A model generated the notes under the pieces. That model did no database searches. It was given only the letters and a program-made list of their open reading frames with translations, and was not told where the DNA came from. A DNA stretch of 64,000 nucleotides from Arthrobacter sp. StoSoilB22 (GTDB lineage: Bacteria; Actinomycetota; Actinomycetes; Actinomycetales; Micrococcaceae), in NCBI RefSeq assembly GCF_019977315.1, contig NZ_AP024652.1:806001-870000 (forward strand). Reading direction: 5' to 3'. How positions within the stretch are numbered: the first letter of the stretch is position 1; each line of letters starts with the position of its first letter. Position numbers and translations under genes: made by a program. Positions 41,516 through 55,228 of this stretch are shown here, in pieces.

Positions 41516-41540
41516 GCGGAGACGGGGGGATTTGAACCCC
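41516..41540 (-). other. attL: 3' fragment of a tRNA gene (probably tRNA-Ser)
   Basis: On the minus strand this reads a T-arm (GGGGTTCAAATCCCC) and the 3' half of an acceptor stem (CGTCTCCG), with a tRNA-type terminator next to it, but there is no tRNA body: the sequence diverges after 41540 into prophage DNA. This is the displaced 3' end left when a phage integrates into a tRNA gene. The full tRNA should be at the far prophage end, outside the window. GGAGACG acceptors are typical of tRNA-Ser. Confidence 0.75.
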
Positions 41541-41751
41541 ATTTCTTGAACCCACTCAATGGTCCGTTATCCCTTACAAATAAAGGGAAGTAGGCGGATT
41601 GGAACCGGATTATCGAAACCGCAGAAACAGCATGATCGGGGGTGATTCGACCCTACTTCCCCCCAGTGGGGGGAGGTTGTCAGGCGTGTTGTGACCGCAA
41701 AGGTACTAGCACGCCATAGCCATAGCGCTGGGTTATCTGGACAATGGGGTG

Positions 41752-41967
41752 ATGGTGTACTTTCCACGATTTCGGACAAGTCAGGACACCACATGCGGCG
41801 AGTGCGGGAAGCCGATAATCGAGATCTATACGCCAACGCCGACGTTTGAGGGTGGTGGCGGGCGTGGCGAAGAAGAGCCTGTGTATGGCCCGTACCAATG
41901 CAGTAACGCAAGCTGCCCGAACCGTTTCCCACCAAAGAACTATCGCTGGTGGATCGTAAACACATAG
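41752..41967 (+). CDS. Small zinc-ribbon protein at the prophage edge
   Basis: A 71-aa protein with CGEC near residue 15 and CSNASC near residue 52, a Cys4 zinc-ribbon-like arrangement around a Gly-rich loop. GACAAT plus 6 nt precedes ATG 41752; a GTG one codon upstream is also possible. Function unknown; probably a moron gene expressed from the prophage independently of the lytic genes. Confidence 0.55.
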   Translation: MVYFPRFRTSQDTTCGECGKPIIEIYTPTPTFEGGGGRGEEEPVYGPYQCSNASCPNRFPPKNYRWWIVNT

Positions 41968-41979
41968 GTGGGCGTGGCC

Positions 41980-42351
41980 CTACTCTGGTAGAAACCCGGG
42001 CGGACGCTTACCCCACTGGACTGAGCGGAGCCACTCAGGGCAGCGGTTGTACTCGTCGATGTCCCATTCGGAGTTGGTCACCGGCCGGACTTTCTCGCGG
42101 GATAGCCAGGCGGTGAGGCTAACTTTGTCGTCGTCGTACCATTGGACGCTGATTTGGGTTTTGTTCCACTGCGTGGCCTCGGCATAGACGGCAACTGTTC
42201 CACCGGCCTTCAGCGGGACTTGAGCGTGCACCTTTGGGTAGTGGCCCAACTCCCATGAACGGATGTCCTCGTGCGGCCCCACGCGCTCTGGATGGGTGAA
42301 CTCGTACGTGGCGCCATCGAGCAAGAACGACGTCGGGGGATAGGTCGGCAT
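41980..42351 (-). CDS. Hypothetical prophage protein, 123 aa
   Basis: Soluble protein rich in Trp (SVQWYDDDKVSLTAWLSREK and PEWLRSVQWGKRPPG). Start ATG 42351 is favoured by CATGAT plus 6 nt; an in-frame ATG further up overlaps the neighbouring gene. No family recognised. Its 3' end converges with the zinc-ribbon gene. Confidence 0.6.
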   Translation of the reverse strand: MPTYPPTSFLLDGATYEFTHPERVGPHEDIRSWELGHYPKVHAQVPLKAGGTVAVYAEATQWNKTQISVQWYDDDKVSLTAWLSREKVRPVTNSEWDIDEYNRCPEWLRSVQWGKRPPGFLPE

Positions 42352-42385
42352 CCCACCATCATGCCAAGCGAAATAGGATGGTCCG

Positions 42386-42532
42386 GTGGAAGTAACGATC
42401 ACCATCCAAAACGCCGAAGGCGAACAAGGCACAGTCAGCGCCGTCGGCAAGGACTACGAGGCTGCACTGGCTGATGCCCGGGCGGTGGTTCCGGAAGGCT
42501 GCATCCAGCTCAACATCCGAACCGACGCCTAG
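42386..42532 (+). CDS. Hypothetical 48-aa prophage protein
   Basis: Too short for most gene callers. It reads MEVTITIQNAEGEQGTVSAV and then an acidic helix (DYEAALADARAVVPE) and QLNIRTDA. GTG 42386 lies 6 nt after TAGGAT, a good leaderless promoter. The pattern of one β-strand pair plus one helix resembles small phage regulators, but no homologue is known to me. Divergent from the 41980 gene. Confidence 0.55.
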   Translation: MEVTITIQNAEGEQGTVSAVGKDYEAALADARAVVPEGCIQLNIRTDA

Positions 42533-42539
42533 GGGACGA

Positions 42540-42572
42540 CAAAACCCCCACCCTCCGAAGAGAGTGGGGGTC
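42540..42572 (-). terminator. Intrinsic terminator
   Basis: CCCCCAC and GTGGGGG arms (with CTCT/AGGG inner bases) followed on the minus strand by TTTTGT; it ends the gene at 42584-42877 and can also stop the plus-strand 48-aa gene. Confidence 0.8.
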
Positions 42573-42583
42573 CTGCGCTTTTG

Positions 42584-42877
42584 TTAGGACTCTTTGCTGA
42601 AGAGGCGTTTGTGAACCTCCGCCTCGCGCTGTGCATACTGGTCCGCCGTGTACGTGTTTGGTGGGCGCTGGCCAGGACCTTCCCAGGTGATGGCGGGCGG
42701 CCACTGGACATTCTTGGCATGCAGCAAGATCGACCCGAGATGTTCCGCGCACACGACGAGGCTTGTGTCATAGACCCGCTCAACAACGAAAGGTCCGGGC
42801 GCATTACAGAAGGTGGATCCGTCCGGGCCATCCGTGTACGCCATGCATTCTGGCGAATTCTCTCTAGTGATTTCCAT
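42584..42877 (-). CDS. Hypothetical prophage protein, 97 aa, Cys/His-containing
   Basis: Starts MEITRENSPECMAYTDGPDG and contains TFCNAPGPFVVE and LVVCAEHLGSILLH; three Cys and a His could bind zinc. ATG 42877 follows TAGGCT plus 7 nt on the minus strand, so leaderless initiation is likely and the longer frame to 42919 is disfavoured. Divergent from the zinc-finger gene at 42954. Confidence 0.6.
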   Translation of the reverse strand: MEITRENSPECMAYTDGPDGSTFCNAPGPFVVERVYDTSLVVCAEHLGSILLHAKNVQWPPAITWEGPGQRPPNTYTADQYAQREAEVHKRLFSKES

Positions 42878-42953
42878 GCTGGCGAGCCTACCTTGGCTGG
42901 TCCTGTTACGCAGGGGCACAGTACCGGTCTTATGTTGCCCCTATACTTCTCGC

Positions 42954-43130
42954 ATGGGGATACTTCCGATTGACCGCATCCGCGCATGGTGGACTGGTAT
43001 GACAACTCCGGGCATCCGTTGCGCTTGGTGCCGCGAGGACCGACTGACATTCAAGTCATCGGGTGGCTATCACTACTGCTCCGAGGCTTGCGCTACAGCC
43101 GACGCTGAGGATCAGCGGGCTTCGTTCTAA
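42954..43130 (+). CDS. Small zinc-finger protein, 58 aa
   Basis: Reads MGILPIDRIRAWWTGMTTPG followed by CAWC and HYCSEAC: a CxxC...CxxxC finger of MYM/FLZ-like appearance that could chelate one zinc. TATACT ends 6 nt before ATG 42954, an excellent leaderless −10. Its 3' end is 8 bp from the convergent tail-fibre gene. Role unknown. Confidence 0.6.
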   Translation: MGILPIDRIRAWWTGMTTPGIRCAWCREDRLTFKSSGGYHYCSEACATADAEDQRASF

Positions 43131-43138
43131 GCAGCAAC

Positions 43139-44575
43139 CTAGCTAATGGTTTCAACCTTGAAGTCGTCCACTGCGAACACCGCGCCGGTTGGGCGCAAGA
43201 TGCCCGCGTAGGCAGATGCTGCGGCAGACGCCGTGGTTACGGATGCCACCTTCACGCCATTGACGTAGAGGCTGTGCGCCGTCCCCGATGAGCGAATAGC
43301 CACCACATCCCCAGCGACAATCGGGAACCTGGCAGTCAACTCCGTACCTGTCGAAATTGAGACAGTTGAGTCAGTCCCGATCCTGGCGTAGATCTGGCTC
43401 GAAGTAGCTAGCGCGGCGCGTCGCGAGATCAGGTTCAGGTCCGCGACAGTCGGGACTTCCTTGACCTTCACAGATACCTGGACGTTGGGCGTCGTAACCG
43501 CGACACCATAGAAGCGCGAGAACGTGTCTGCTCCGTTACGCAGAACACCAGAGGACACCACCATCGATGTGCTCGTGGTTGACGATGTCTCCCACGCCTT
43601 GGCGGTTCCGCCAAGCAGCGCGTCAGTGGAACGTCCAAAGATCGTTCCATCGGTTCCAGTGAAGGTGTCCGATGTGAGGGTAGTCAGCGTCACCACAGGG
43701 TCCGGGGCGGGGGCCGAAAACCGGGCAGGAGGCAGGAACCCAAGCCCATCTTTCACGAACTGCGCAAACAAAGCGTGCCCATCCGCAAGCAGATGCGCCA
43801 AGTCTGCATCCCTGATCCCAAACGGGTCGCTGCCAGGAATCCCAATAGCGGCGAACTCATCGTTGATGTCGAGGAAAGCGACGTTCTTCGGGTCCTCATC
43901 TGCGATTTCGATAAGGACATCCCGGTACGCGGACCACGGCGCGATTGGGACGGCCGTAGGAGACTCAGTCTGGAACTGGTGGATCAGCAGGTGCACAAGC
44001 GGCCCCGGCGTGTCAGCGTTTAGCTGGGCGATGCGGCTCTGCAACCGGGTCTTGTAGTTACTCAGAGTGACTGATCCCGCGTAGTCGTTTGAGCCAACCG
44101 AGTGGACAATCAGCGCTGGGTTCAATGATGCAACCTGAGGGCCGGTGGTATCCGTGATGTAGGTCCCCGCTGATGCCCCAGAGATGCCCATATTCACAAG
44201 GTGAATGCCCGGTGTGGTGGGCGGGGCCGCAAGGGCTTCCGCAAGGGTCAACGGAGTTGCTTGAGCCAACCCACTGGCCATTGGGAACGCCTCTGCGAGC
44301 ATGACACCGAATCGGGTGAACCACCGGGCCGGGATCGTGCCTGACTTACTCCCGGCCATGGTTGAGGAACCAGCGCCGATTACGATAACTGGCGCCGTCT
44401 CTCTGCGGAGCAGCGCGGCCTTGAAGATGCTAAGCGCGGCGAGCCTGTTCTTTGCACCCGCTTCTGATTTGAGGGCATAAGTGGCATTAAGTGCCGTGTC
44501 TTGTAGTCGGTCTGGGATGTGCTTGTTGAAGATCTTGCCGGACCCGTCAAGCGACGGGACTTTCTTGATAGCCAT
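43139..44575 (-). CDS. Tail fibre/tip protein with SGNH-hydrolase (esterase) domain
   Basis: A 478-aa protein. Residues 1-60 resemble phage fibre attachment sequence (GSGKIFNKHIPDRLQ). Residues about 62-285 are an SGNH/GDSL hydrolase: block I GAGSS (68-71), Gly block NMGISGAS, Asn block HSVGSNDY, and the Asp/His block ending ADGHALF. Residues 295-478 are a β-rich jelly-roll-like module with TFTGTDGT and VDDFKVETIS. It probably removes acyl groups from surface glycans during adsorption. The last tail gene of the module. Confidence 0.85.
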   Translation of the reverse strand: MAIKKVPSLDGSGKIFNKHIPDRLQDTALNATYALKSEAGAKNRLAALSIFKAALLRRETAPVIVIGAGSSTMAGSKSGTIPARWFTRFGVMLAEAFPMASGLAQATPLTLAEALAAPPTTPGIHLVNMGISGASAGTYITDTTGPQVASLNPALIVHSVGSNDYAGSVTLSNYKTRLQSRIAQLNADTPGPLVHLLIHQFQTESPTAVPIAPWSAYRDVLIEIADEDPKNVAFLDINDEFAAIGIPGSDPFGIRDADLAHLLADGHALFAQFVKDGLGFLPPARFSAPAPDPVVTLTTLTSDTFTGTDGTIFGRSTDALLGGTAKAWETSSTTSTSMVVSSGVLRNGADTFSRFYGVAVTTPNVQVSVKVKEVPTVADLNLISRRAALATSSQIYARIGTDSTVSISTGTELTARFPIVAGDVVAIRSSGTAHSLYVNGVKVASVTTASAAASAYAGILRPTGAVFAVDDFKVETIS

Positions 44576-44590
44576 AGCGGGTGGCTCCTA

Positions 44591-45091
44591 TCAGGCGGTG
44601 ATGAGCAGGGCGTCAGCGTCAGCAGGATCCACGGCAATGGAACCATCAGACTTGGTGGTGAAAACGAGGGTGTCGGCGTCGGTCGGGTCGAGCGCCACGC
44701 CGCCGCCGGCGGCCGCGAGTGCAGCCAACTCGGCGGCAGCTTGAGCGGCTGCTGCGTTGGAAGCGGAATTTGACGCGGCGGCTTCCGCGCCCTGCGCAGC
44801 TTCCCGCGCTGATACTGCCTCGTCACGCACGCCTTGGAAGCTCGGCTTGGCGACCTTCAAGCCGCCGCCGGACATCTTCACTTGAGGGGAAGTGGTCACG
44901 AATGGCGGTACGAAGGCGTCAGCACTGGACGTGAGCGGGTTCGGTAGGGGCAGCCCGTTCAAGTCCTTCAGCGCCAGCGGGGTGCTCTCACTCTCGTCGT
45001 TCACGTCATAGATAGTGACCGCCGAGTTGGCCGCCCGCTGGAATGTGAACGGGTCAGCGACGAGCTCCGATTCGTACGTGTAGTCAGCCAT
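44591..45091 (-). CDS. Tail fibre/collar-type protein with Ala-rich coiled region
   Basis: A 166-aa protein. N-terminal β part (MADYTYESELVADPFTFQRA), then a heptad-like Ala/Glu-rich helix (about 90-125), and a C-terminal pair of near repeats, GVALDPTDADTLVFTTK and SIAVDPADADALLITA. The layout of a trimeric coiled coil with short β tips suits an adhesin accessory protein. Its ATG overlaps the RBS-proximal end of the holin-like gene upstream. Confidence 0.65.
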   Translation of the reverse strand: MADYTYESELVADPFTFQRAANSAVTIYDVNDESESTPLALKDLNGLPLPNPLTSSADAFVPPFVTTSPQVKMSGGGLKVAKPSFQGVRDEAVSAREAAQGAEAAASNSASNAAAAQAAAELAALAAAGGGVALDPTDADTLVFTTKSDGSIAVDPADADALLITA

Positions 45092-45861: not shown

Positions 45862-46455
45862 TTACGGGAGGGGAATTCCGAGATTGACCAGCACCAACTG
45901 GTCCGGGGTGTAAATGGGCGCCGGTACTGTTTCACCGGCGGACTCGAGGGCGGCGGACTCAAAGAGCTCTTCCGGGTTGCTGCGGCCGTAGTAACGGCTA
46001 TTCAGCACGTAGCCATCACGCAGGATCTCAAAGTGAAGATGCGCGGCCACAGAAGCGCCCGTCGAACCCGACAGGCCGATAACCTGCCCCTCAGTCACCC
46101 ACTGGTCCTTGCTGACCTTCGCGCCACCATCGAGGCAATGGCCATAGATTCCGATGAACGAGCCGTGATCGATCACGTACCCGTAGCCGAAGAAGCTGGG
46201 CAGGATCCACCACGGGTTATCCGCGTACGTCCCGCCGAGCCAGCCCACGTGCAGGACCTTCCCAGAAGTGACCGCGTAGATCTTGGACCCAGACCGTGCG
46301 CCGTAGTCCTGCCCCGTGTGCCCGTCAGGCTGGTAGTTGCCGTACAGCCACACGTAATAGCCCATGCCTGAGTTGGGGTTCGAGTTCGCCACCACACCCG
46401 CGGTCGCTCCGTCGCCGAAATCTTGCGTCAGGGGAGCGTCTACTGGTCGCCTCAT
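45862..46455 (-). CDS. M23-family peptidase, probable endolysin
   Basis: A 197-aa zinc metallopeptidase with HTGQDYG (HxxxD) and HLHFEI (HxH), plus the GYVIDHGSFIGIYGHC strand typical of M23 LytM domains. No signal peptide, so release through a holin fits. Start ATG 46455 overlaps the preceding stop (ATGA 46452-46455); the longer upstream frame is rejected. It would cut peptide cross-links during lysis. Confidence 0.88.
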   Translation of the reverse strand: MRRPVDAPLTQDFGDGATAGVVANSNPNSGMGYYVWLYGNYQPDGHTGQDYGARSGSKIYAVTSGKVLHVGWLGGTYADNPWWILPSFFGYGYVIDHGSFIGIYGHCLDGGAKVSKDQWVTEGQVIGLSGSTGASVAAHLHFEILRDGYVLNSRYYGRSNPEELFESAALESAGETVPAPIYTPDQLVLVNLGIPLP

Positions 46456-46835
46456 TTGCTGTCCTTCCGCTGTGCCCAGTCCGCGTTGATTCGGAGCTGG
46501 AAGAACAGGATGGCCAGGCGGACGGCGGCCACCAGAACGGCGCTGTAAATCACAAGGCGGAAGATCTCCCGCAACGGGGTCGCGCCGAATAGCGCACTCG
46601 TGATGATCAGGATGAACAATGACGCCAGCGAACCGAGCAGCATCATGAGTGCCCGGCCCGTGCGGGTACGCCACCAGTCCGGCGCTGTAACCCAATAGAT
46701 GATCGGCAACGCAACCCAGAACGAACCAGCGATGTAGCCGATGTACAGGCCCGGAATGCCAAGCACCCCGTAAACGGTCAGGGCGGCTGCGGCTACCAAG
46801 GATCCGATAATGCCTCTGATGATGGTCCTCTTCAC
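46452..46835 (-). CDS. Four-helix membrane protein of the lysis region
   Basis: A 127-aa protein with helices at about 7-24, 27-49, 63-83 and 92-112, short loops and a basic end (RINADWAQRKDSK). Overlaps both neighbours by 4 bp. Could be a holin partner or part of tail-related membrane functions; not certain. Confidence 0.65.
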   Translation of the reverse strand: MKRTIIRGIIGSLVAAAALTVYGVLGIPGLYIGYIAGSFWVALPIIYWVTAPDWWRTRTGRALMMLLGSLASLFILIITSALFGATPLREIFRLVIYSAVLVAAVRLAILFFQLRINADWAQRKDSK

Positions 46836-50458: not shown

Positions 50459-53400
50459 TTAGCGGTGAACCGCCAGCGCGTCACGCTGCGATGTTTCGAT
50501 GAGTCGGACTGCTTCGTGCTCGTCACGGACGTGCAACTGCCCGATCTGGACAGCCGGACGGTCATGACCTCGCCTTGTCGCGAGGCTGTACATCGCTTCC
50601 CATTGCTTCGGGTTGAGGATGTATTCCGGCTGCCGGGTACGGTTGACCACCTGCGACAACCCAGGAGGCAGAATGCCGCCCTGATCGTGCAGGTAAGGCA
50701 GCCCAGTCGAGCCGATACCGTCGTCCTTGCCACCTTGACCAGTAACGAATGCGACGGCGCCGTCCAGGATCTTCTTGCCAGCACCGATGGCCATGTCCGC
50801 GAACATGCCATCATCCGGGAATGCCTTCTTGAACTGGTCCACAAGGCCGTCCACGATTCCGGCGATCGGGTTCCAACCTGCGGAACCTGCCTCGCCGCCG
50901 CCGTCCAAATACTCGGCCGGGTTCACGTAGCTCGGCCACCCACCGTTCATCACCATGTAGTGCAGGTGATTGCCGGTGGAGTTACCTGTGGAACCGACCT
51001 CGCCGATCTTCGATCCGCCGGTGACCATCTGGCCCAGCTTCACGGCGAACTTGGAAAGGTGCGCGTACCACGTTTGCAACCCGTTCGGGTGGTCGATGTG
51101 GATCTCGTTGCCGCCGCCGTAGGAGGACCATCCAGCAGAAGACACACGGCCCGGACCGGCAGCACGGATGGGAGTACCACCCGCAGCTGCGAAGTCGATG
51201 CCGTTGTGCCCGCTGTGGAAGGGCTGAGATACGACACTGCCTGGCAGAGGGTGAATCAGGCCGCCCTTAGCTCGGCCCGGGTGGAATCCCGATGCCATGA
51301 GCTGTCGAACGGCGCCGACGCCCTTATTGCCTGCGGCGTTGAGCATGTCAATGAACCCTCGACCGGCGCCGCGAACGACCTCCGGAACGAGCACACCCTC
51401 ACCGGGCCGCATAGGGGTAAGCACGGTGTCCCGCTTGCGCGCTTCGTACCCCGGCAACACGCCACCCCTAGAGAAACCCGGGGGCAGGGAGACTCGAGGC
51501 AGCTCCGCCAAACCAAGGGACTTACCGATGGTGTTCAGCCCGTTGATCAGGCCATCGTTGATGACCGTATCGACTACGAACTTGACCGGGTCCTTCGCGA
51601 TATCCTGCAGCTTCTCCCAAGCGGTCTTTATGAAACCGACCCCGTCTTCAAAGGCTTTCGGGATCGTTTTCGTTATGAAATCGCCAAGGACGTCGAAAAC
51701 TGGCTTGATGACGTTTTCCCAGACCCATTTGATTACCGCGCCGATAGCATCGAACTGAGGCTTGATGACGTTCTCGTAGAGCCAGACGAAGGCCGGTCCG
51801 AGGACGTTGTTCAGCACCCAAACGAGGCCGTCAAAAATCGGTTTGATGATGACCGTCCACCAAGCCGAAATCAGCGCTCCGATAAATCCGAACACCGGCT
51901 TGATGACTTTTTCGTAAAGCCAGACGAACGCTGGCGCTATGACTTTCTCGATCACGGCACCGAGCAGCTGGAAAATGTAGCTCGTCGCCGTCCACCAGGC
52001 GCCGACGACGAGGCTGATCCCCTCGAAAACGGGGCGAATGATATTTTCGTAGAGCCACGTAAAAACGGCTCCGACGACGGCGAAGACCTGCTGAATTATT
52101 GGCATCGCCGTGTTCTGGAACCAGTCGACCACCGCGGCTACGGCGACCTGTATGGCGGCCCACACGTTCTGTACGATCTGCTGCCCCAGCTCGGTTTGGG
52201 TGAAGAACCAAACCAGACCAGCGACGACGAGCCCGATGGCGGTGATGATCCACATGCCGGGGAACGCCTTGATGCTGTTGTTCCAAAGCCACTGCGCAGC
52301 GGTAACGATTTTTGTTGCCGTCGCCCAGCCGGCCATGGCGATTCGCTGAATATTGCCCGCGGCCGTTAATGCAGCCGAAGCCGCACGCGTAGCCACGAAG
52401 GCGCCAATCAGGAGGCCAAGAACAGCAGGACTGCCAGCGATGGCCACCAGCAGCGGATCGAACACAGACAGCAGGGTGGCGACACTTGAAGCGAAGAAGG
52501 AGAAGACCTGAATCAGGCTTGGCCCGACTTTCTCCGTGATCGGCGCAAGGGCCGAAAGGAAGGCTCCGAAGGCTCCGGTCAGTCCAGGGAGCAGCGGAAC
52601 AATTTCCCCTACCCCGCGCTGCACGGCCTCCATGAAGATCTTCAGCCCGGCCCCGAACTCAGGGTTCGACAAAGCCGTGAACACGCCACCAGTGAAGGTG
52701 CCCGCGATCTCGCCACCCAGCCGCAAGAAGTCAGCAAAGGCCGTGGCCCCGTTCTTGAACGCTTCACCGATGGGACCCAGCGCCGCCAGGAGGCCTTGCG
52801 AACCAGCCTCCGCGCCAGCGAATATCGTTGACATGGTCGTCTGGAAAACAGGGCCCTGCATGACCGTCTCGATATTGCGGAGTGCCGCTGCCATGCCGCT
52901 CAGAGTCGATACGGCGCCGCCGGTTTCAGCCGCTTGATTCAGTGCAGAGAAAATTCCGGCCACCGAACCACCGATGGACCAGAGATCCTTGAATCCCTGA
53001 ATTCCGTTGTCGATCCACGTAGCGAGCCGACCGTCAGCAGCGGCTGCCTGAATGAAGTCATTGAAGCGTGTAGCGATGTCAGCGATCGCCGTAGCGAGGC
53101 GCGGCATGTAATCCATGCCGACCTGGCCGAGGGTCACGAATGAGGTCACTACAGGCTCAATTGCCCGGTTCAGGATGGTCGTGCTTGTAGCCACACCCAT
53201 CAGCAGGGATTCGAGCACTCCGCCGTCGAGCGAAGTTTCGAGGGCCCGCATGAAGATCTGCGCTCCGGAACCCAGTGCAGACGCGATCGCGCCTACGCCA
53301 GTTGCCAGCTGGGGCATCACAGAACCAGCCAGAGAAAGCAGAGGTGCGGCGAACCCCGTGAAGAAGTTCTCCTGCGCGATCCTCCGGATCTGCCCAAGCT

Positions 53401-55228
53401 GTTCCTTGACGGCCAGCAGGGCCCGTGCGGACTCTTGCGCTGCAGGGGTGAGCTTGCCCATCGCATCGGCCGACTTTTGGCCGGACTGCGATGCCGTGTC
53501 GGCCTGCTGCATCTGAACCCGTTCTAGGTTCCGGTGAGCCTGCTCCACGGCGCGGGCAGCATCTACCTGCGACTTCTGCGCCTGCTCAGTTGCGTCCTGA
53601 ATGGCGAGCTGCGCGTCAGCGATCCGCTTGGCGCCGTCCTGCTCCTGCTTGAGGACTTCTGCTTGAGCTTCCTTACGGGCTTCGATGGCGTCTGTCTGCG
53701 CTTGCCGGGCGTCAGCCAGGCGCTGCTCAGCGTCAAGGACCTTCTCGTTACTGGCCTGTGCTTCCTCCTGCGCCTTGACTTGCTCGTCACGAAGATCCAG
53801 CACAGCGCGCTTGGCGTCCTCATCAGCCGCCATCGACTTCGCAACGTTGTTCTCCAACTGCGCGAGAACAGCATCCGAGGACTTCGGGTTGCTGGCAGCT
53901 TTGTCGTACGCTTCGATCGCGCGCTGGTGAGCCAATGCCGTGTCAGTTGCTTTGAGGTTGGCAGCCTCGAGAGATCGGCCGACAGTTTCGACCTTCTTGG
54001 CTGCATCCTCACGCGCCTTGACCAGATCGCGCTGGGCTTCGATGACATCGCGGGCAGCTTTCGCCTCGTCCCGCTCGGCCATTTCCACTGCCTTCGCGGC
54101 GGCCTTCTGTGCTTCGGCAGCTGCCAGCGTGACTTCCTGCAGGCTGCGCTTGGCATCCGAGACGCGACGTGCAGCCTGCACCTGGGCATCAGCAGCGTTT
54201 TCCTCCGCCACGGTGATGGCCTGCATGGCGTCCTCAACAGCCATGGCAGCCAGGCGCGGATTCGCGGTAGAGACGCTGCTCGCGCCTTCCAGAGCTGTCT
54301 TCAGCGCTTCGCCCACGCCAGAGAACGCGGACACGAGCACGCCAGCACCGGCACCGATGGCCATAAGGCCGGCCGGCACGAGTGCCGCCACACCAGCGAG
54401 AGAACTGAGGGATGCTGCGAACGTGATGACGTTGCCGGACGCGCCCAGCACGGCGGCACCGACAGCGCCAGCGGCAGGAGTGATGGCAGAGAGCCCGCCA
54501 ACGACGCCAATAAATGCTTGTGTGAATGCCCGGCCGCCGCGGGTACCTTCCCGTGCGACGTCCTGCGCCATCTTGGACAGGTCCACGCGGATCCGGTCAG
54601 AGTCGCGCCGGATACCCGTGACAAGGTTGCCAAGCGGGCTTCCCTTGAATGCGCTAGTCAGCCTGGCGGCCAACGTGTTGGCGCTGCGGCCGGTGCGCTC
54701 GGATTCCTCCGTCACCCGCTTGAGATGGGTTTCGAGTTCAACCGATGCTGCAGAGGACTTGCTCTGCGCGTCACCAAGGTTCAGCGTTGCTTTGGCCAGG
54801 GCATGCTCAGCGACTTCACGACGGTCCGTTGCGTCAGCTGCGCGGTGCCGGATGACGCTCAGCTTCTCTTCCGCAGCAGCGATCTGAGACGCCTTAGCGT
54901 TCCCGTTGTCGCGGACTTCCTGAAGCTTGAGCTCCGCCACGCGCAGCTCGCCAAGAGCCTTGGACTCGGTCGCCGAGGCGGCGGCCAGTTTCGCCTTGGA
55001 AGCCGAGAGGCTGGTTTCAGCCTGAGTGGCAGCCTTGGTCAGGCGTGACACCTCAGCTTCAAGCCCTGCAGTTTCCGCCGAGAATCCGGCCGCCATTCCG
55101 GCACCCATGTCCTTGCCAGCAGCGCGTCCGGCCTTCGTGAACAACGGGCCTACGCGCTTGGCGACTTCCCGCTGCACCCCTGTGAAAATCGGCTTCACAA
55201 GCACTTCCGCGATACCGATTACGGACAT
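50459..55228 (-). CDS. Tape-measure protein with internal M23 peptidase
   Basis: A 1589-aa protein that sets tail length. Residues about 40-190 and 330-590 are long coiled coils rich in Ala, Glu and Lys; hydrophobic stretches lie at about 240-305 and 950-1020. Residues about 1020-1200 hold Trp-rich repeats (AFVWLYEKVIKPVF and variants). Residues about 1325-1450 are an M23 LytM peptidase with HNGID (about 1341-1345) and HLHY (about 1425), which could open peptidoglycan on entry. The C-terminus returns to a helical, GILPPG-containing end. Confidence 0.92.
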   Translation of the reverse strand: MSVIGIAEVLVKPIFTGVQREVAKRVGPLFTKAGRAAGKDMGAGMAAGFSAETAGLEAEVSRLTKAATQAETSLSASKAKLAAASATESKALGELRVAELKLQEVRDNGNAKASQIAAAEEKLSVIRHRAADATDRREVAEHALAKATLNLGDAQSKSSAASVELETHLKRVTEESERTGRSANTLAARLTSAFKGSPLGNLVTGIRRDSDRIRVDLSKMAQDVAREGTRGGRAFTQAFIGVVGGLSAITPAAGAVGAAVLGASGNVITFAASLSSLAGVAALVPAGLMAIGAGAGVLVSAFSGVGEALKTALEGASSVSTANPRLAAMAVEDAMQAITVAEENAADAQVQAARRVSDAKRSLQEVTLAAAEAQKAAAKAVEMAERDEAKAARDVIEAQRDLVKAREDAAKKVETVGRSLEAANLKATDTALAHQRAIEAYDKAASNPKSSDAVLAQLENNVAKSMAADEDAKRAVLDLRDEQVKAQEEAQASNEKVLDAEQRLADARQAQTDAIEARKEAQAEVLKQEQDGAKRIADAQLAIQDATEQAQKSQVDAARAVEQAHRNLERVQMQQADTASQSGQKSADAMGKLTPAAQESARALLAVKEQLGQIRRIAQENFFTGFAAPLLSLAGSVMPQLATGVGAIASALGSGAQIFMRALETSLDGGVLESLLMGVATSTTILNRAIEPVVTSFVTLGQVGMDYMPRLATAIADIATRFNDFIQAAAADGRLATWIDNGIQGFKDLWSIGGSVAGIFSALNQAAETGGAVSTLSGMAAALRNIETVMQGPVFQTTMSTIFAGAEAGSQGLLAALGPIGEAFKNGATAFADFLRLGGEIAGTFTGGVFTALSNPEFGAGLKIFMEAVQRGVGEIVPLLPGLTGAFGAFLSALAPITEKVGPSLIQVFSFFASSVATLLSVFDPLLVAIAGSPAVLGLLIGAFVATRAASAALTAAGNIQRIAMAGWATATKIVTAAQWLWNNSIKAFPGMWIITAIGLVVAGLVWFFTQTELGQQIVQNVWAAIQVAVAAVVDWFQNTAMPIIQQVFAVVGAVFTWLYENIIRPVFEGISLVVGAWWTATSYIFQLLGAVIEKVIAPAFVWLYEKVIKPVFGFIGALISAWWTVIIKPIFDGLVWVLNNVLGPAFVWLYENVIKPQFDAIGAVIKWVWENVIKPVFDVLGDFITKTIPKAFEDGVGFIKTAWEKLQDIAKDPVKFVVDTVINDGLINGLNTIGKSLGLAELPRVSLPPGFSRGGVLPGYEARKRDTVLTPMRPGEGVLVPEVVRGAGRGFIDMLNAAGNKGVGAVRQLMASGFHPGRAKGGLIHPLPGSVVSQPFHSGHNGIDFAAAGGTPIRAAGPGRVSSAGWSSYGGGNEIHIDHPNGLQTWYAHLSKFAVKLGQMVTGGSKIGEVGSTGNSTGNHLHYMVMNGGWPSYVNPAEYLDGGGEAGSAGWNPIAGIVDGLVDQFKKAFPDDGMFADMAIGAGKKILDGAVAFVTGQGGKDDGIGSTGLPYLHDQGGILPPGLSQVVNRTRQPEYILNPKQWEAMYSLATRRGHDRPAVQIGQLHVRDEHEAVRLIETSQRDALAVHR

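Follow-up and report, generated by a model that had tools for sequence, protein, structure and literature searches.

A probable lysogenic-conversion slot beside the tail esterase gene of a temperate Arthrobacter prophage

We propose that a cluster of tiny genes at the edge of an Arthrobacter prophage belongs to a lysogenic-conversion slot of a temperate siphophage. Judged from sequence, this is the most likely explanation in view of a survey of the slot in relatives, a DNA element common to many of them, the points at which homology breaks and the fit of the genes to leaderless promoters, and we give it a probability of about two in three. Genes B and C would form the fixed edge of the slot, as two divergent leaderless genes adjoining the attachment site, and the replaceable segment would extend from the terminator of C to the 5' end of the tail gene, with its cargo opposing the late operon. 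Such cargo would often be driven by the common promoter element, which would make expression possible in a lysogen whose late genes are silent. Sister phages often have a surface-type enzyme as cargo, which would probably alter the polysaccharide recognised by the phage's own tail esterase and so exclude superinfection; here the cargo would consist of E, standing behind the element in the enzyme's place, together with D, both small metal-finger-like proteins. Against this reading counts the small number of clear relatives of three of the genes: one of A, one of D and four of E.

The window, that is, the whole stretch of 64,000 nucleotides that was analysed, covers C1:806001-870000 of a 4.55-Mb chromosome (Table 1). 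The 25-base end of tRNA-Ser that forms the attR core is repeated inside an intact tRNA-Ser(gct) gene (898265-898354), so that the prophage would measure ~50.8 kb and reach up to C1:898290. From the core inwards the att side matches phage Bauer (41516-41674, 77%) and contig L080 (41516-41672, 86%), and at the far end lie an integrase-like ORF (896615-897769) and small regulator-like ORFs, all named by reading the ORFs. The five-ORF cluster is placed between the att remnant and a tail gene with a GDSL esterase domain; in related phages the slot or B region lies between structural genes and integrase, and in the integrated prophage the integrase-like ORF is the one at the far end. Elsewhere in the window, PHROG matches place an M23 peptidase-like stretch near the C-terminus of the tape-measure protein (50459-55228), and a separate M23 gene occupies 45862-46695.

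Table 1. Features of the slot region, in window coordinates.
Feature	Position	Strand	Description	Matches and remarks
attR core	41516..41540	-	tRNA-Ser 3' remnant	25/25 identical to C1:898266-898290
Gene A	41752..41967	+	71 aa (72 if GTG 41749), zinc-ribbon-like	variable, between B and att
Gene B	41980..42351	-	123 aa, predicted SH3/Tudor-like barrel, conserved anchor	55 phage records
B/C gap	42352..42385	.	34 bp	divergent -10s: B CATGAT (minus), C TAGGAT (plus)
Gene C	42386..42532	+	48 aa, predicted beta-beta-alpha-beta	66% in Kumotta, MargaretKali
Hairpin terminator	~42544..42571	.	between C and D	folding energy; relatives' homology stops about here
Gene D	42584..42877	-	97 aa, Cys/His-rich, taken as cargo	42% relative (A7) in G151
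Slot element and predicted promoter of E	42903..42948	+	GGGGCACAGTACCGGTCTTATG ... TATACT	
Gene E	42954..43130	+	58 aa, CxxC-x15-CxxxC, zinc-finger-like, taken as cargo	four clear relatives
Tail gene	43139..44575	-	GDSL esterase domain	Pfam Lipase_GDSL_2 9.2e-10; phrog_28054 7e-30

A sequence-only reading of this DNA had described five alternating-strand genes of 48-123 aa within 1.4 kb, with leaderless promoters and their own terminator, and its sizes and span are correct: the five ORFs, which we regard as real or probable genes, alternate from plus to minus across 41749-43130. As a simple -10 rule we required a hexamer 5-8 nt before the start with A at position 2, T at position 6 and at least 4 of 6 matches to TATAAT, or alternatively TAnnnT. 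By this rule all five starts carry a box (A GACAAT, B CATGAT, C TAGGAT, D TAGGCT, E TATACT), compared with a background of 720 of 29,723 ATG/GTG codons (2.4%) and of 4 among 214 late-strand genes. The start of A was picked post hoc, since ATG 41752 passes and GTG 41749 fails, and the box of D has 3 of 6 matches and fails under a stricter rule. With these two reservations, the promoter claim holds at the level of sequence, and all five ORFs fit predicted leaderless promoters of their own, apart from the late operon. A sigma-70 scan with -35 boxes returned no promoter (0.7 expected), and a palindrome-like motif of the B/C gap was set aside as not above chance (4 window matches, all at sites other than the gap, with 4.13 expected). 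The terminator hairpin between C and D is well supported, at -33.3 kcal/mol (z -6.3) on the minus strand facing D and -23.1 kcal/mol (z -2.8) on the plus strand facing C.

None of the five proteins reaches the cut-off of any Pfam or NCBIfam family, Pfam fingers included, and their top PHROG match is that of E to an HNH family (0.0053), spanning the finger of E only. The earlier statement that none belongs to a recognised family is thus right for curated libraries, but B, and also C, are common in relatives, so the absent family reflects a gap in the libraries and not rarity. The suggestion of anti-phage morons found no backing: PADLOC gave no family for the five proteins at E <= 1 and no match at E <= 0.01 among ten cargo proteins of relatives.

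Gene B is the most widely conserved of the cluster. Its relatives in phage records are all from Arthrobacter and each cover at least 80% of B; a further eight occur in named genome contigs, again all Arthrobacter. Of 16 family genomes with a match to B, the 13 other than G000, G137 and G009 have E 2e-10 to 9e-4 at 28-36% identity and were left out of the survey; the relative in G086 is clearly related by profile. With pN/pS of 0.19-0.28 against six relatives, B is under purifying selection. A -10 box precedes the start of B in 26 of 31 loci, or 28 of 31 once two start coordinates are corrected, a count in which the duplicate pair L088 and L099 appears twice; an additional B locus (L094) fails the rule. 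The hexamers themselves vary (CATGAT, TATATT, TAGCAT, TACGAT), mostly at a constant distance of 6-7 nt. In Kumotta (L003) the annotated start of gp27, the B relative, seems too late, and starting from a GTG further upstream, which CATGAT precedes by 6 nt, yields a family-like N-terminus. In G151 two similar B-like proteins of ~100 aa lie near the relative of D (L048 10111-10413 and 14531-14833); one of them was compared with B and showed weak similarity (hhalign probability 68). B is flanked or adjoined by two tyrosine integrases in L004, L006, L098, L099, L100 and L102; double integrases are noted in PMC13097055.

This proximity bears on an alternative, possible though in our judgement unlikely, in which B and C form an integration or lysogeny control module, B aiding attP-linked recombination or regulation and A, D and E being passengers. 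In the 12 named phages whose B region was read, no more than about three genes separate B from an integrase, and in Bauer, Isolde, Constance and Zucker B has an integrase on either side. The AF2 model of B (pLDDT 82.7), a small SH3/Tudor-like barrel with two helices, has DNA-binding PWWP and retroviral integrase C-terminal domains among its neighbours, all at Z <= 5.5. These structural matches are weak, however, the best having Z 5.5 and none reaching Foldseek E <= 0.001, and in QuinnAvery, according to PMC13097055, no protein gene separates the two integrases. Moreover, tblastn finds B in only 4 of 10 five-kb stretches fetched with the slot element described below, which means that element and B are separable, and most of the six stretches without B nevertheless have an integrase in view.

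Gene C adjoins B in G137, L060, L062, L063, L064, L068, L085 and L086. In Kumotta and MargaretKali the C-strand carries no annotated gene at the C homologue. Genes of 47 aa annotated beside B in Kukla, EvePickles, BrayBeast and TripleJ are C-like, as far as their place and weak similarity indicate (31-34% identity over 35 aa in Kukla, BrayBeast and EvePickles; 24% in TripleJ). C has pN/pS of 0.34-0.64 and a confident AF2 model (pLDDT 93.2); a fold search with it returned weak matches, none at E <= 0.001, and nothing was built on them. A -10 box is present in 10 of 19 C-family members (11 of 19 with L057 corrected, 12 of 20 with L053 added), and seven of the failures have CAAGAT in the box position. 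L041, counted there from a wrong start coordinate, passes from the right one as well.

Small genes paired side by side, with PIN and RES proteins in or next to the slots of relatives, might also call to mind a toxin-antitoxin pair, formed by B and C or by D and E. We consider this improbable: both pairs are divergent, with separate predicted promoters and no operon, none of the proteins matches a toxin family in Pfam, NCBIfam, PADLOC or PHROG, and by tblastn there is no C beside B in, for example, L061, L065, L066 and L071.

Genes A, D and E are far less widespread. The zinc-finger-like Cys patterns that had been claimed for two or three of the genes are borne out, with CxxC...CxxxxC in A, CxxC...CxxxC in E and, in D, C...C...CxxH, and we regard all three proteins as zinc-finger-like, metal binding being predicted. 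A has a single relative, of 44% identity (A8), found by tblastn in L064 in the matching place and orientation (pN/pS 0.53), and none in the phage collection or in 244 other genomes of the family; one 13-residue match in viral contig L069 was discarded. For D the one clear relative is that in G151, which has no recognisable tail context and for which pN/pS is rough, the alignment having extended beyond the relative's stop codon; TAnnnT stands 7 nt upstream of the start in both. A candidate in G136 was dropped (E 6.7e-4, internal stop). Relatives of E lie near a GDSL-type tail gene or fragment (L049, L051), beside a short SGNH-like ORF under the Pfam cut-off (L052) and beside an AT3 acyltransferase (L050), and seven residues (I9, C23, C26, C42, C46, D50, Q54) are invariant in 5 of 5 sequences. 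Candidates in G130 (two internal stops) and G040 (E 3.1e-4) were rejected. Neither D nor E has a match in the phage collection or the viral contigs.

That relatives of A, D and E are so few, and that a codon-usage gene caller leaves A and E uncalled, could point to chance ORFs within non-coding prophage DNA. For B and C, conserved and with pN/pS below 0.65, this is already refuted. In the other three the Cys/His ligand positions are retained (four Cys of E in 5 of 5 sequences; A 2 of 2; D 2 of 2), as mostly is the upstream -10 box (A 2 of 2, start choice included; E 4 of 5), and we hold the chance explanation for the whole cluster to be very improbable.

The breaks in homology define the slot. 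In a DNA comparison of the window with ten distinct relatives (L081 repeats L070), homology spans B and C and ends at 42,501-42,572 in 8 of 10, L083 and L087 ending earlier. It resumes at 44,460-44,807 in six, further on in three and never in L078, the interval 44,460-44,807 corresponding to the first codons of the tail gene or to the preceding gene. By these break points, the relatives compared have other DNA in place of D, E and almost the whole tail gene, and the sole match inside the replaced segment is the slot element, in G137. D is placed here between terminator and element, unlike the order in G137. We infer that the replaced segment moves as one unit. The flanks are kept and the content differs between relatives, as both the break points and the cargo survey indicate, and B and C are, on this comparison, the predicted conserved edge of the slot and not its cargo. 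The idea that this is a typical place for lysogenic-conversion genes or morons is supported for exchangeable genes that oppose the late operon, but not for B and C.

Searching related prophages for cargo in the same slot, as had been suggested, revealed surface-type enzymes on the strand opposing the tail genes in 16 of 30 other phages or prophages, by Pfam cut-off or record annotation. They occur in the contigs or genomes G137, L062, L065, L067, L085 and L086 and in the phages Peas, TripleJ, Bauer, Shoya, Isolde, Kukla, Seahorse, Constance, AbbyDaisy and EvePickles, and comprise GDSL/SGNH esterases, lipases and hydrolases as well as AT3 and other acyltransferases, glycosyl- and rhamnosyltransferases and a C5-epimerase. 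Left out of the 16 were L060, with a Wzy_C protein above the cut-off on the late strand, and Zucker, with Wzy_C below it. The remaining loci (A. ipis (L046), L061, L063, L064, L066, L068, L071, L093, L094, Kumotta, Sarge and BrayBeast) contain PIN or RES proteins, membrane or HTH proteins of small size and proteins without a family, the slot of Sarge being empty by annotation. In L046 (8539-8943) and L068 (5381-5809) the place that A has here, att-side of B, is taken by PIN-domain (VapC-like) proteins, and a 428-aa PIN_8 protein lies in the slot of L066 (3615-4901; Pfam E 1.2e-55; no PADLOC match at E <= 0.01).

Duplicates in the contig set (L078-L084, L087 and L095, which repeat contigs from L060-L068; L070, equal to L081 over the compared part; L063 and L081, one contig) and same-phage pairs (L088/Constance, L090/TripleJ, L091/Peas, L092/Eileen, L110/Maja, L111/Peas) were counted once in the 30-locus survey. 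L074-L077 were excluded because their matches were short or no tail gene was visible. The loci are related phages and as such non-independent samples.

The slot element, of ~40 bp and with the consensus TTnnnGnnGGGGAACTTAACCGGTCTTATGGnGCCCTA, lies upstream of E here and just beyond the terminator of C in several relatives. Its 41-base copy from Peas (L091) occurs in 36 phage records (duplicate accessions included), all Arthrobacter, at one site each, on the minus strand throughout and at ~22.7-27.6 kb; a 66-base query made from the window's copy has no match in the phages. An exact 19-base pattern is present in 3 of 245 family genomes, once each and with a B gene in all three, and the reversed pattern has no match among the results listed. 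In viral contigs the pattern occurs in 72, 29 of which match the 23-base consensus at 20 or more positions; the count of -10 spacing took only those 29, and some of the other 43 may be chance. The element is usually single-copy and marks the slot. Kumotta has no copy in the 38 kb examined.

The genes next to the element agree with the cargo survey. In ten phages fetched by it (Peas seen whole through L091, the QuinnAvery stretch cut) the element faces genes that include an esterase, lipase, acetyltransferase, hydrolase or membrane protein, and the gene group converges on the tail gene in the nine phages with a tail gene in view or following. Among 28 distinct viral contigs found by the pattern, a downstream gene was called in 13; the first ORF was scanned in ten of these (omitting two ORFs below 90 aa and the L067 repeat), and eight of the ten exceeded Pfam cut-offs (GDSL 4, AT3 3, Wzy_C 1, the last being Maja). 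Cargo in the slot was thus also seen in phages and contigs retrieved by the element. For the other 15 of 28, gene calling gave nothing on the same strand over a distance of 2.5 kb, in some cases because the contig stops short.

Whether the element works chiefly as a promoter can be judged from its spacing. A -10-like hexamer lies 16-18 nt past the element core in 17 of 37 distinct copies, against 1.9 expected, with a sharp peak at 17-18 nt (20 of 37 have no box at 16-18 nt), and in 11 of 46 distinct sequences start codons follow 6-8 nt after the -10 box, 29-31 nt from the anchor. Both regularities speak against a mainly recombinational role, in which the element would be an anchor for swapping modules of tail enzyme and cargo and not a promoter, an option we treat as tentative and rather less probable than its opposite. 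In its favour, the element sits at the slot border, and in L116, L118, L126, L133, L138 and L177 it abuts the stop codon of a convergent gene with no called cargo, an arrangement not explained by a pure promoter. In QuinnAvery (L192), furthermore, a partial (2501-2526) and a full (~3585) copy flank the inserted reverse genes gp36-37, which look as if they had come in at the element. Taken together, the -10 spacing and the six stop-abutting contigs lead us to regard the element as a predicted promoter in many phages and perhaps also as the crossover anchor of the segment.

Within the lysogenic-conversion reading, modification of surface sugars by the usual cargo is suggested by the enzyme families found, and such a surface change would be the purpose of the slot, given expression in the lysogen. 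D and E are short proteins that match no enzyme family, so their place of action would be the cytoplasm and their target host surface genes or an incoming phage; a regulatory or exclusion role for either is a guess. A more far-reaching proposal, which we advance as speculation and think doubtful, is that the shared promoter and exchange element docks a swappable tail sugar-ester enzyme together with an opposing counter-gene, which would let receptor use and self-exclusion evolve jointly, in a single cassette; here the 58-aa zinc-finger protein would replace the enzyme and block the receptor by way of host surface genes.

In summary, a vague guess about tiny genes has become a defined and searchable cargo slot, made up of a conserved gene pair, an element of which a phage usually has one copy, and a replaceable segment in which tail enzyme and cargo are joined. 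With the element as a handle, conversion genes can be listed throughout the Arthrobacter phages, even those whose small size kept them out of annotations, and one can ask whether phages exchange receptor enzyme and self-exclusion gene together. A narrow literature search returned no paper for the string AACCGGTCTTAT and none on the slot.

The kind of slot is already known and the present one is a new example; we found no report of the common element. Serotype-converting phages, for example those of Salmonella and Shigella, carry O-acetyltransferases. The slot resembles them in having acyltransferases or esterases as prophage cargo next to a receptor-modifying tail enzyme, and differs in its Arthrobacter hosts and in that this prophage has a pair of small metal-finger-like proteins in the enzyme's stead. 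With the defence hotspots of P2-like phages and P4-like satellites (PMC9122126) the slot shares exchangeable cargo at fixed places in the phage genome; the proteins tested here, however, have no known defence family, and the replaced segment takes in nearly all of the tail enzyme gene. Closest in print (PMC6426596) are central genes that actinobacteriophages express in the lysogen, such as gp30/gp31 of Sbash and those of the cluster N mycobacteriophages, for which RNA-seq and plating demonstrate lysogenic expression and heterotypic defence. What the two cases have in common is a position between the structural genes and the integrase, with small groups of variable genes near the middle of the genome; whereas expression and defence are established there, the Arthrobacter slot is known from sequence, and the cargo of its relatives is often a surface-type enzyme.
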